From Actinomycetota bacterium (lineage in GTDB: Bacteria; Actinomycetota; Thermoleophilia; Gaiellales; Gaiellaceae), in assembly GCA_020029625.1 (NCBI GenBank), contig JAIBJP010000001.1, positions 1 to 35,239 of the forward strand: a stretch of 35,239 nucleotides of DNA, in the 5' to 3' direction. Position 1 is the first letter of the stretch; each line of letters opens with the position of its first letter. A program made the translations under genes and the position numbers. The notes beneath the pieces are model-generated. The model was not told the DNA's origin. It did no database searches and was given only the letters and a program-made list of their open reading frames with translations. Of this stretch, positions 4,333 through 34,753 are shown one piece after another.

Positions 4333-4498
4333 AGAGCCCCAATCACGATGAAGACCTGTGCCGCTGGGCCGCACTGGACGTCGCGATGCGTTGTCCTCGG
4401 TCGCGCCCGTATCTCTTTCGATACGAGCGCTCCCTGCGTCCTCGCCTCCCACCGCCCATCGCAGCCCAACGACGAGGCTCCATCGTGACCGGAGCTCT
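4333..4498. repeat. Fold-back repeat family 1, copy 2 (166 bp)
   Basis: This is the same architecture and exact span as copy 1. The outer arms, 4333-4357 (AGAGCCCCAATCACGATG...) and 4475-4498 (...CATCGTGACCGGAGCTCT), pair with four G:C-to-A:T differences and one bulge. The central stem is CGTATC/GATACG around TCTTTC, with CGC/GCG pairing beyond a C-A mismatch. It starts 5 nt after the scpA stop. Its right arm contains the GTG start of scpB and the GACGAGG that would act as its ribosome site. The forward strand also has an ATG (4386) in frame with scpB. Confidence 0.87.
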
Positions 4499-17765: not shown

Positions 17766-18479
17766 ATGGCGATTGTCACGCCCGAGCGCAGGCGCGCGGA
17801 GCCTCCTCCGCCTACACCCCCGCAGTACGAGCCTCCCCGCCAGCGGCGCGAGGTCCCTTGGGGCCTGATCACGCTGGGCATCCTCGTCATCGCCATCTTC
17901 GGAGGCGTGAGCTGGGTCAGGGGTGTGATCCCGGACTTCCATAACCCGTTCGCCGAGACGACCGTCGACCGAAGCGGCCCGGCCGTTCTCAAGTCGATTC
18001 AGGATCTGAACGAGTACCACGCCGCCACCGGCAACTTCCAGCAGATCGTCGACCTGAGGAAGAGCAGTGCGCTGCCAGATTCGATTCTCGGCGAGCGTAC
18101 GCTTTTCGTCGCGGTCGGCTCGGTAGACGCGATCGTCGATTTCACCGAGGTCGGGCGCGGCGCAGTTCAGGTCTCCGACGACCGGCGGTCAGCCACGATT
18201 ACGCTCCCGCGTCCGCGGCTTTCCGACGCCCAGGTCGATGTCGGGAAAAGCTACGTCTACGACCGTGACAAGGGACTCTTCAACCAGATCGGCTCGCTCT
18301 TCGGGAGCACCACAGACGACCAGCGGCAGCTCTACACGCTTGCGCAACAGAGGATCCACGCAGCCGCGCAAAACGGCGCGGGTCTCGTCCCACGCGCCGA
18401 GGACAACACGCGCAAGATGCTCCAAAGCCTCCTTCGCGCACTGGGTTTCACCAGCGTCGCAGTGAATTTCCAGCCCTAG
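17766..18479 (+). CDS. DUF4230 single-pass membrane protein
   Basis: This is a 237-residue protein. Residues 1-32 are Pro- and Arg-rich and cytoplasmic. Residues about 33-53 form a transmembrane helix (GLITLGILVIAIFGGVSW). The rest matches DUF4230: GPAVLKSIQDLNEYHAATGN, VDLRKSSALPDSILGERTLF and VAVGSVDAIVDF. The function is unknown. It follows metK by 20 nt and is the last gene of the long plus-strand run that began at aroG. A strong hairpin follows the stop and faces the convergent dtxR-type gene. Confidence 0.82.
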   Translation: MAIVTPERRRAEPPPPTPPQYEPPRQRREVPWGLITLGILVIAIFGGVSWVRGVIPDFHNPFAETTVDRSGPAVLKSIQDLNEYHAATGNFQQIVDLRKSSALPDSILGERTLFVAVGSVDAIVDFTEVGRGAVQVSDDRRSATITLPRPRLSDAQVDVGKSYVYDRDKGLFNQIGSLFGSTTDDQRQLYTLAQQRIHAAAQNGAGLVPRAEDNTRKMLQSLLRALGFTSVAVNFQP

Positions 18480-18482
18480 CCT

Positions 18483-18545
18483 CCTGGTCGGTGCGGCAAT
18501 AAGCCGGGCGAAGCCCGGCTTCGCTCGCGCCTGACGACCCAGGAC
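18483..18545. repeat. Fold-back repeat family 2, short copy; possible two-way terminator
   Basis: In the 79-bp gap between two convergent genes a nested hairpin forms. The outer pairing is TCCTGGTCG/CGACCCAGGA (one bulge), then GGTGCG/CGCGCC, with the inner stem AAGCCGGGC/GCCCGGCTT closed by GAA. GGCGAAGCCCGGCT followed by CGC and CGCCTGAC matches the element at 32173. The complement matches the element in recG, where CAGGCG, AGCCGGGCT, CGCCCGGCT and CCAGGAG line up. It looks like one end of the longer element. No T-run follows, so termination would be non-canonical. Confidence 0.65.
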
Positions 18546-18558
18546 GTTTGGGATGTCC

Positions 18559-22711: not shown

Positions 22712-22877
22712 AGAACTCCATTCAGAATGAGACCTGAGCCGCCTGAATCGCGCTCGGCGGCGCGATGCGGCGTCCTCGGTCGCGTCCGTATTTCATTCAA
22801 TACGAACGCTCCCTGCGTCCTGGCCTCGCACCCCCGATCGCGCCCAGGCGACGAGGCCCCATCCTGAAAGGAGTTCT
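22712..22877. repeat. Fold-back repeat family 1, copy 3 (166 bp)
   Basis: This copy has the same span and centre as copies 1 and 2. The outer arms are GAACTCC A TTCAG (22713-) and CTGAA A GGAGTTC (-22876), 12 paired bases around one A-A mismatch, continuing inward with ATGAGACCT against AGGCCCCAT. The central stem is CGTATT/AATACG around TCATTC, with CGT/ACG beyond a C-A mismatch. The first base abuts the fmt stop. The right arm includes AAAGGAG, the best ribosome site for rsmB. The forward strand has an ATG (22765) in frame with rsmB. Confidence 0.88.
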
Positions 22878-32170: not shown

Positions 32171-32172
32171 CA

Positions 32173-32337
32173 TCGCACTCCTGAACGGCATGGCCCCGCC
32201 CGGCGAAGCCCGGCTACGCCCACGCCTGACTCAGCTGGCTGCAGGATGCTGCGCCCGCGGCGCTAGGCCGTGCTACTTGCACTGTCCGTCGCCCCTCGGG
32301 CTTGCCTCCTTGGCCAGCGGCGCCCCAGAAGCGCGAG
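32173..32337. repeat. Fold-back repeat family 2, long copy (165 bp)
   Basis: The ends TCGCACTCCTG (32173-32183) and CAGAAGCGCGA (to 32336) are inverted copies with two differences. Inward, TGGCC, then GGCGAAGCCCG against CGGGCTTGCC, also pair. The reverse complement aligns with the recG insert along its whole length; in one 41-nt ungapped block ending CAGTGCAA I count 30 identities. It overlaps the 3' half of the minus-strand small ORF and supplies that ORF's TAG. It fills the gap between the cupin gene and recG. Confidence 0.75.
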
Positions 32338-32443
32338 TCGTCTCGGACGGCGGGCCCGAGGACTGAAGCTCGGCGAGGCGAGCGCGCACCGCGTCCGCCG
32401 AAAGCCCGAAGACGATGGTTACGGTCTTACGGCTCTTGGCCAC
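32273..32443 (-). CDS. Small hypothetical protein (56 aa)
   Basis: From GTG 32443 the minus strand encodes 56 residues beginning VAKSRKTVTIVFGLSADAVR and ARLAELQSSGPPSE, a short beta strand plus helix with gene-like character. The last ~20 residues (TTRASGAPLAKEASPRGDGQ, then CK) come from the family 2 repeat and are probably not part of the original protein. TACACT on the minus strand 6 nt before the GTG suggests a leaderless transcript. I recognise no family. Confidence 0.5.
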   Translation of the reverse strand: MAKSRKTVTIVFGLSADAVRARLAELQSSGPPSETTRASGAPLAKEASPRGDGQCK

Positions 32444-32539: not shown

Positions 32540-34753
32540 ATGGACCAACGTACGCCGGAGCCGAGGTTCAGAGTGGACGAAGAGGCCCCCGTGAGCACGC
32601 TCTCCGGCGTGGGCCCGAAGGTTGCCGAGCGGCTGGCGGCTCTTGGGATCGAGAGCGTCCGGGACCTCGCGGAACACGTTCCCCGCGACTTCCTGGACTG
32701 GTCGGAAGCGAGAGGGTTCGCGGCCCTTCGGCTCGGACAGGAGGCGACCGTCGAGTGCACGGTCGAGCGGGCGCGCCTCCGACCGACGCGGCGGCGCAAC
32801 CTGAAGCTCGTCGAGGCGGCGGTCGTTGACGGGGAGGGCGGCAGGGCGACGGCGGTCTGGTTCAACCAGGCCTGGCTGGCCGAGCGCCTCGTCCCCGGGA
32901 CGCGTGTCCTCGTCCACGGCCAGCTCCAGGCCGGCGGCACCTTCAAGGTGGAGCGGCACGAGCTGGCGGGGGACGGCGCGGGCCTGCACACGGTCGGGCT
33001 CGTCCCGCTCTATCCCGCGAGCGAGGCCGTCTCGACGACGAAGCTCCGGGAGCTGACCGAGCGTGCGCTGCCGCTCGTCCGCTGGTACGCCGACGCGCTT
33101 CCCGCGGAGGTGCGTCAGCGGGAGAAGCTTCCGCTCCGCGCCGATGCTCTCGCCGCTTACCACCGGCCGGCGCGCCTCGAAGACGTGAGAATTGCTCGAG
33201 AGCGGCTCGCCCTGGAGGAGTTGATCGTGCTCCAACTAGGCCTCCTCCAGCGAAGGCGCGAGCTCGAGGAGGAATCCGTCGCGCCTGCTCTCGACACCCC
33301 GGGGGAGCTCCTCACGGGCTACCGCAAGGCGCTTCCCTTCGCGTTCACGCCCGAGCAGGAACAGGCGATCGTCGAGATCGACTCCGACCTGCGCGGAACG
33401 CGGCCCATGCAGCGGTTGCTCCAGGGCGACGTCGGCTCGGGGAAGACCGTCGTCGCGCTCTACGCTCTCCTCCGTGCCGTCGAGCGTGGTCACCAAGGCG
33501 CGCTCATGGCTCCGACTGAGACGCTGGCGGAGCAGCACTACCTCACGGTCGAGCCGATCTGCGCGGCCCTCGGCGTGCGCGCCGCGCTCTTGACCGGCTC
33601 CGTGAAAGGCGAGATCGAGGACGCGGACCTCGTCGTCGGGACGCACGCCCTGATCCAGGAGGGCGTCGAGTTTCGCTCGCTGGCGGTAGCCGTCGTCGAC
33701 GAGCAGCACCGCTTCGGTGTCGAGCAGCGGCGCGCCCTGGCGCTCGCCTCCTCACGCTCCTGGGGCCAGGCTGGCAAGGGAGGCGAGCGAGCGGCGCGCT
33801 GCGCAGTGCAAAGCGGCACGGGCAAGCGCCGCGAGCGAAGCATCCTGTCGCCAGCCGGGCCAGGCGACGGCGGAGCCGGGCTCCGCCCGGCTGGGCGCGT
33901 CGCCGGCCAGGAGTGTGAGGCGCCTCACGTCTTGCACATGACGGCGACCCCGATCCCGCGCACGCTGGCGCAGACCGTCTACGGCGACCTCGATGTCACG
34001 GAGATCGCTCGTCCGCCCAGAGGTCGCCGACCGGTCGTCACGAGCTGGGTCTCCCACGAGCGCGCTGCCGAGGCGTACACGCGGCTCAGGCGCCACCTGC
34101 AGGAGGGACGTCAGGCCTACGTCGTCTGCCCGCTCGTCTCGGAGTCCGAGGCGATCGAAGCGCGCGCGGCCGAGCAGGAGGCCGAGCGGCTGCGGCAGGC
34201 AGAACTCCGCGACTTCCGAGTGGGCTGTCTGCACGGACGGATGCGACCGGCCGAGAGGCGCGCCGTCATGGAGGAGTTCAAGCGCGGCGAGCTGAACGTG
34301 CTCGTGGCGACTACGGTGATCGAGGTCGGGGTGGACATCCCGAACGCAACGATCATGATCGTCCAGGAGGCAGACCGCTTCGGGCTCGCACAGCTCCACC
34401 AGCTCCGGGGCCGGGTGGGTCGCGGCGCGGAGCAGTCCTACTGCTTGCTCGTCTCCCGCCCCAAGGAGGAGCTGACGGAGGAGGCGCAGCGGCGTCTGGA
34501 AGCGCTCGTGGAGACCTCGGACGGCTTCAAGCTGGCCGAGGTCGATCTCGAGCTGCGCGGCGAGGGCCAGCTGCTCGGAACGCGCCAGTCGGGGCTTCCC
34601 GACCTCAAGTTTGCGAGTCTGACGCGAGACCGGAAGCTGGTTGAGAAGGCGAGGCGATGGGCCGAGGAGCTTGCTACCGACGAGAGCGACGCCGTTCAGC
34701 CGCTTCGCCGACAGGCGGAGCGGCTGAATGAGGATCATCGCGGGTTCGCATAA
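32540..34753 (+). CDS. recG: ATP-dependent DNA helicase RecG with internal repeat-encoded insert
   Basis: RecG reverses stalled forks and processes branched DNA. From ATG 32540 it has 737 residues against about 690 usual. N-terminal STLSGVGPKVAERLAALGIE and the wedge domain are followed by Walker A (LLQGDVGSGKTVVALYALL), MAPTETLAEQHY, DEQHRFGVEQRRAL (motif II) and HMTATPIPRTLAQTVYGDLD (motif III). VVATTVIEVGVDIPNATIM and QLHQLRGRVGRG complete the helicase. About 55-60 extra residues rich in Gly, Arg and Ala separate motifs II and III, encoded by a family 2 element without stop or frameshift. GTG 32591, after AAGAGG, is an alternative start. Its 3' end overlaps rsmD. Confidence 0.94.
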   Translation: MDQRTPEPRFRVDEEAPVSTLSGVGPKVAERLAALGIESVRDLAEHVPRDFLDWSEARGFAALRLGQEATVECTVERARLRPTRRRNLKLVEAAVVDGEGGRATAVWFNQAWLAERLVPGTRVLVHGQLQAGGTFKVERHELAGDGAGLHTVGLVPLYPASEAVSTTKLRELTERALPLVRWYADALPAEVRQREKLPLRADALAAYHRPARLEDVRIARERLALEELIVLQLGLLQRRRELEEESVAPALDTPGELLTGYRKALPFAFTPEQEQAIVEIDSDLRGTRPMQRLLQGDVGSGKTVVALYALLRAVERGHQGALMAPTETLAEQHYLTVEPICAALGVRAALLTGSVKGEIEDADLVVGTHALIQEGVEFRSLAVAVVDEQHRFGVEQRRALALASSRSWGQAGKGGERAARCAVQSGTGKRRERSILSPAGPGDGGAGLRPAGRVAGQECEAPHVLHMTATPIPRTLAQTVYGDLDVTEIARPPRGRRPVVTSWVSHERAAEAYTRLRRHLQEGRQAYVVCPLVSESEAIEARAAEQEAERLRQAELRDFRVGCLHGRMRPAERRAVMEEFKRGELNVLVATTVIEVGVDIPNATIMIVQEADRFGLAQLHQLRGRVGRGAEQSYCLLVSRPKEELTEEAQRRLEALVETSDGFKLAEVDLELRGEGQLLGTRQSGLPDLKFASLTRDRKLVEKARRWAEELATDESDAVQPLRRQAERLNEDHRGFA
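33752..33918. repeat. Fold-back repeat family 2, in-frame copy inside recG (167 bp)
   Basis: TCACGCTCCTG (33752-33762) and CAGGAGTGTGA (33908-33918) are inverted ends with one difference. Inside is AGCCGGGC/GCCCGGCT around TCC (33874-33892). The sequence matches the reverse complement of the 32173 element: TCNCGCTNCTGGGGC, CAGTGCAA, GCACGG, AGCGCCGCG, GCATCCTG, CAGGCG, AGCCGGGCT and CAGGAGTG occur in the same order. CGCCTC occurs at both edges (33745-33750 and 33921-33926) and could be a target duplication. Confidence 0.82.

Follow-up and report, generated by a model that had tools for sequence, protein, structure and literature searches.

To our knowledge, palindromic repeats inserted in frame within proteins have been described as a peculiarity of Rickettsia. 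Dispersed hairpins are also familiar from the REP/RAYT system, in which the hairpin measures 20–40 nt and the RAYT gene is flanked by copies of it. The Rickettsia palindromic elements (RPE) are about 150 bp long, fall into several families and have also entered housekeeping genes with the frame preserved (Ogata et al., 2000, 2002, via PMC10969869), and a 2024 review regarded a similar route in other prokaryotes as merely conceivable (PMC10969869). The same source provides a third comparison, the MITEs, exemplified by intragenic ERIC and by QMITE of Coxiella (PMC10969869). A text search for literature on repetitive extragenic palindromic elements in combination with Thermoleophilia did not yield a paper. 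Here, we describe an insert in a gaiellacean recG gene which we consider, with good confidence, to be a mobile structured repeat that is tolerated and translated at a permissive loop of the protein.

The window, i.e., the whole stretch of 35,239 nt that was analysed, contains a recG gene (coding region as used, 32576..34753, plus strand; the ORF is open from 32270) with 168 additional nucleotides, or 56 codons, in frame between the sequences for helicase motifs II and III; the spacing from DEQHRFG to MTATP is 240 nt, compared with 72 nt in most relatives. An earlier note on this DNA had placed some 55–60 extra residues here, encoded by an insert with inverted ends at 33752-33918. Size, place and inverted ends are all borne out, but the exact bounds are not: the terminal inverted repeats, CTCACGCTCCTGG (33751..33763, plus strand) and CCAGGAGTGTGAG (33907..33919, plus strand), form 12 Watson–Crick pairs and one G–T pair and delimit a slightly longer element, 33751..33919 (plus strand), which is recognized over model positions 1–169 by the R1 covariance model with 144 bits. 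The net gain of the gene equals the length of this element within a base or two, the frame is open and every helicase motif around the insert is intact, in agreement with the proposal that a structured repeat would have become coding sequence without a frame break. In alignments with the solved RecG structures 1gm5 and 9wm0, the insert maps to a gap of ~7 chain residues that separates motif II from motif III, which is consistent with a loop, in the note's view one at the protein surface. An intein was considered and rejected, given that the insert comprises 56 residues only, with no C-terminal HN plus nucleophile at its right boundary.

The insert belongs to a dispersed family, hereinafter the Y-element, another member of which occupies 32172..32338 (minus strand), between recG and the cupin-type gene upstream of it, whose stop codon it directly follows. 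The two are 76.2% identical over 168 nt (blastn E-value 7.7e-28), with a local score of 130, compared with at most 37 in 500 dinucleotide-shuffled controls. The similarity of the insert to positions 32173-32337, noticed earlier, is thus confirmed, but not the claim that the two match in the same order: the alignment is to the reverse complement, and the same-strand score (27) is insignificant. A partial copy, apparently a remnant, lies at 18475..18552 (minus strand; 41.7 bits). Elsewhere in the same genome (120 contigs totalling 1.47 Mb, with a completeness of 78%), a third full copy, on contig C59, is 78% identical to the insert and a fourth, on contig C75, scores 112.8 bits, bringing the covariance model count to four full-length and about six partial copies. 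The intergenic copy next to recG does not stand out as the parent of the insert, since the copy on C59 resembles the insert at least as much.

Iterated nhmmer searches collected 76 matches in the fetched loci, 43 of which were near-complete and were aligned. The consensus has the shape of a Y, built from P1 (13 pairs joining both ends), a long arm P2 with the cap GGACAGTAC...GTACGG, and P3 (GCGGAGCCGGGCTCCGC), and comes in two subtypes, a long one of ~169 nt, to which the recG copy belongs, and a short one of ~150 nt. In the 43-sequence alignment, 36 of the 47 pairs include at least one sequence changed on both sides and 94.8% of cells are paired, with a covariation score of 0.399 versus 0.139 in shuffled and at most 0.110 in slid alignments. 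The outer pairs are highly variable and yet complementary, as illustrated by TAAGCCGT/ACGGCTTA (L074) and CTAGCCCGT/ACGGGCTAG (L079). The recG copy retains 45 of the 47 consensus pairs, including all 13 of P1, and its predicted fold is very stable (−124 kcal/mol). Such covariation would be superfluous in a purely passive repeat and implies either selection on the fold or its repair by template switching. Tandem copies with the same variable P1 sequence, 3–5 nt apart end to end, were observed at two loci (L011 and L093).

Outside a single family of soil actinobacteria, the Y-element was not encountered. According to the covariance model, 59 of the 103 genomes that represent the window's family (Gaiellaceae-like, Thermoleophilia), all of them drafts and many of them MAGs, carry it, with up to 26 scored copies in a single genome, counts which are lower bounds because a limited number of candidates was scored per genome. 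It is missing from all 156 genomes sampled from the rest of the class, and all 23 carriers in a class sample of 199 genomes belong to the family. A scan of 84,980 species for the signature pattern retrieved 21 stretches, all from Actinomycetota MAGs, the more closely named carriers being Gaiellaceae, Candidatus Gaiellasilicea or Thermoleophilia. Dispersal within genomes, combined with restriction to one clade, is what would be expected of a mobile element that lacks its own gene.

In this respect, the Y-element resembles MITEs: it is short (well within 500 bp), devoid of its own gene, bounded by terminal inverted repeats and predicted to fold stably as a transcript, and it occasionally produces in-frame fusions. 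By contrast with MITEs, it is G+C-rich, no parent insertion sequence was found, and the strong covariation extends over the whole element rather than being confined to its ends. Nor did a consistent direct repeat emerge as a target-site duplication; 19% of copies show direct repeats above the 95th percentile of re-paired flanks. A 26-nt direct repeat at L211, examined as a possible target duplication at a tRNA end, is part of a repeat of 51 nt that extends into element sequence, and the locus has no full tRNA; it is therefore no clean duplication. A search for an associated transposase, which covered Y1 transposases, found none. The genomes do hold Y1 transposases (78 of 103 in the family), along with a REP-like family of two-hairpin elements, which recalls REP/RAYT systems; however, the Y-element, with its 150–170 nt and paired ends, is much longer than a REP, and none of its copies lies beside the Y1 genes examined. 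Y1 enzymes were also rejected as the mobilizer, since presence of the two is not coupled: the element occurs in 11 of 25 genomes without and in 48 of 78 genomes with Y1, and several genomes rich in it have no detected Y1 gene. In the window's own genome, a single Y1 transposase gene was found (L264; contig C54, 4000-7000); its flanks consist of a direct repeat of 81 nt (99%) and the hairpin CCGGGGTCTGACCCCGG, both unrelated to the Y-element.

Comparison of 47 RecG proteins revealed extra residues at the motif II–III loop in some of them only. In the sister lineages of the window's genome (G023, G063, G064, G054, G053 and G065), zero to at most three extra residues are present at the position where the window's RecG has 56; the insert is thus not universal, and its nucleotide similarity to intergenic copies is strong, contrary to both signs that the note had named as refuting its view. 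One further recG gene, that of G072 from a second genus, has gained 50 residues from a short-subtype copy of the Y-element (nhmmer E-value 1.8e-14), which is missing from its genus mates (G071, G073, G074, G075, G076, G077 and G081). The tree places many insert-free lineages between the two carriers, and hence the two insertions are independent. Nevertheless, the distance from the end of the copy to the MTATP codons is exactly 18 nt in both genes, and the two copies agree in orientation and frame.

The same loop has received unrelated sequences as well. The recG genes of G101, G011, G067 and G100 encode 36 extra residues, which derive from the two-hairpin element (GCGGGCAAAGCCCGC ... CGGCACCGCAAGCGGTGCC; loci L034, L036, L037 and L038) together with a GVEQRRAL target segment in duplicate. 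This REP-like element is dispersed in 23 genomes, at times as tandem arrays that repeat about every 110 nt, and the recG insert is missing from G102, the sister of G101, and from the genus mates of G011. A small, related hairpin accounts for 23 and 17 extra residues in G094 and G095, respectively, and was found only in recG among the five genomes searched. In three further genomes (G027, G028 and G070; loci L063, L064 and L065), NN assembly joints coincide exactly with the motif II–III region of recG, possibly as a result of a hairpin insert that interrupted the assembly at this point. These joints, along with the fragmentation and incompleteness of the window's own assembly, might be taken to indicate that the recG insert is an artefact of assembling a MAG. 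We consider this most improbable: a misjoin at a repeat would connect unrelated loci, whereas here both halves of recG run on in frame with no codons lost, and independent insertions occupy the same place in other assemblies.

A second hotspot is the linker preceding the second half of CarB (L113, L114, L115 and L119), which has received at least three dispersed insert families and a palindrome. The carB gene of G056 harbours an in-frame Y-element, read from the opposite strand, at about residues 500–547 of the CarB query; nearly all relatives lack it and join directly at this point. In the same linker, carB of G060 carries a different repeat, dispersed in that genome, with a 29-nt direct duplication, carB of G004 a palindrome and a CarB paralogue of G048 a member of the second palindromic family of the window, D2 (78% identity over 78 nt, E-value 8e-10). 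D2 repeats follow the pattern CGATGCG...CCTCGGTCGC...ATACG...CGCTCCCTGCGTCC and are found in the window at 4370-4498 and 22749-22877, two long copies sharing 81–82% identity, and in part at 2541-2610.

Thus, several unrelated element families have entered the recG loop and the carB linker, always in frame, and every insertion found at the two sites has a length divisible by three and an open frame. By chance, an in-frame open insertion of the Y-element would be expected with a probability of ~0.20, and three such insertions with ~0.008. This consistency speaks for translation and against removal of the insert at the RNA level, by self-splicing or another form of excision, which would yield a RecG without the extra loop and would need neither divisibility by three nor an open frame. 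The compact, strongly covarying fold with paired ends, as well as its predicted stability, is what one might expect of an excised RNA. However, at ~170 nt the Y-element matches no Rfam family at the gathering threshold, intron classes included, for which reason a self-splicing intron of known class was rejected, and beyond a tendency to RTGAG the flanks of its copies show no conserved sequence. We therefore regard post-transcriptional removal as very unlikely, and favour translation of the insert as part of RecG.

Insertions into genes are the exception. Of the 122 distinct copies of the Y-element, three are in-frame parts of a recognized gene, namely the two recG copies and the carB copy, and no others. 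ORFs spanning other copies (38 candidates, 30 of which were compared with Pfam) revealed no interrupted Pfam domain except in recG and carB and thus appear to be mostly chance open frames in G+C-rich DNA; the apparent in-frame cases at L140, L138, L152, L017 and L187 turned out on inspection to be gene junctions. Given that coding DNA dominates such genomes, the scarcity of copies in genes suggests that most in-gene insertions are lost.

The context of the remaining copies was assessed with a simple codon log-odds score trained on the genes of the window, for 117 copies with sufficient flanks. A coding start codon lies within 10 nt of the right end in 46% of copies, compared with 15% for the left end, and 29 of the 54 right-end start codons occupy the two positions inside the terminal RTGAG. 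At the left end, a coding stop codon is present in 41% of copies versus 1.6% at random positions, and 39% of copies have both the upstream stop and the downstream start. The junctions include, for instance, nuoJ|nuoK-like and moaD|cysK/M-like pairs, the copy at the latter being orthologous and common to G072 and G079. At L187, L202, L221, L193 and L153, among others, the downstream gene takes its start codon from the RTGAG right end of the element. A start codon inside the right end is paired within P1, and translational control at such junctions is possible. The Y-element could accordingly be a functional cis-acting RNA of operon junctions, with the recG and carB copies as by-products of its spread, an idea to which the stop and start codon frequencies, the orientation bias, the junction copy kept in two species and the strong covariation lend some weight. 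Yet the host genes vary between copies, and the junction bias is also explicable by purging of in-gene copies or by a target preference for RTGAG, so that we hold this possibility only tentatively.

Such a target preference would characterize a site-specific mobile element that inserts beside RTGAG/CTCAY sequences resembling its own end. In 21% of copies, RTGAG is found no more than 15 nt from the left end, as opposed to 0–7% (mean ~2%) in control windows, and the tandem copies have a similar spacing, 3–5 nt from end to end. In the window's recG, the codons of the PHVLH region (CCTCACGTCTTGCA; 33923..33936, plus strand) are a candidate target motif, the PHVL codons CCTCACGTCCTG resembling the element's end CCTCACGTTCCTGG. 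That the two independent recG insertions agree in position, orientation and frame, and are equally distant from MTATP, likewise suggests site preference rather than random insertion and selection alone. On the other hand, start and stop codons confound the RTGAG enrichment, the carB site has no RTGAG-like motif, the in-gene cases number just three and the resemblance of the PHVL codons was noticed post hoc; site specificity is therefore a possibility that we would not rank as probable. Bolder still, and rather doubtful, is the notion of a class of site-seeking structured elements that insert by RTGAG/CTCAY, settle at stop|start junctions, where their terminus becomes the next start codon, and recur at one exact nucleotide of recG, where the PHVL codons mimic their end, to be translated as a new loop.

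Returning to the reading that we favour, namely a mobile structured repeat tolerated at a permissive loop, the Y-element (150–170 nt, with P1 formed by the terminal inverted repeats and two further arms) would spread through genomes, probably mobilized in trans; insertions that break genes would be lost, leaving copies mostly at gene junctions and rarely at tolerant loops of essential-type proteins; and translation of the recG copy would lengthen the motif II–III loop by 56 residues. The closest parallel is offered by RPE. In both cases, a palindromic repeat of ~150 bp with paired ends is represented by several families per clade and by intergenic as well as in-frame genic copies, and the host proteins, including those of housekeeping genes, would tolerate it without loss. 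Dispersed palindromes of ~100–150 bp with copies in ORFs read in frame are thus common to both, but not one conserved peptide frame, as the two recG copies of the Y-element share a frame and the carB copy is read from the opposite strand. The hosts, too, are not Rickettsiales but Gaiellaceae-like, high-G+C Actinomycetota known from metagenomes, in keeping with the restriction of the pattern to Actinomycetota MAGs among the species scanned. Furthermore, unlike RPE, the Y-element is Y-shaped with three stems, its dominant intergenic site is the stop|start junction, and the same loop has been hit repeatedly by unrelated families. In our analysis, the Y-element is best read as acting like RPE but as belonging to another lineage, in view of its different phylum, its three stems and the lack of a common peptide frame.

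Taken together, these observations suggest that the outcome seen in Rickettsia has been reached independently in unrelated high-G+C actinobacteria, through several independent events in which several element families entered the same two loops. The recG and carB insertions offer natural replicates for studying how selfish DNA contributes new segments to proteins. Likewise, a regulatory role of the element is directly testable at those junctions where its end provides a start codon.
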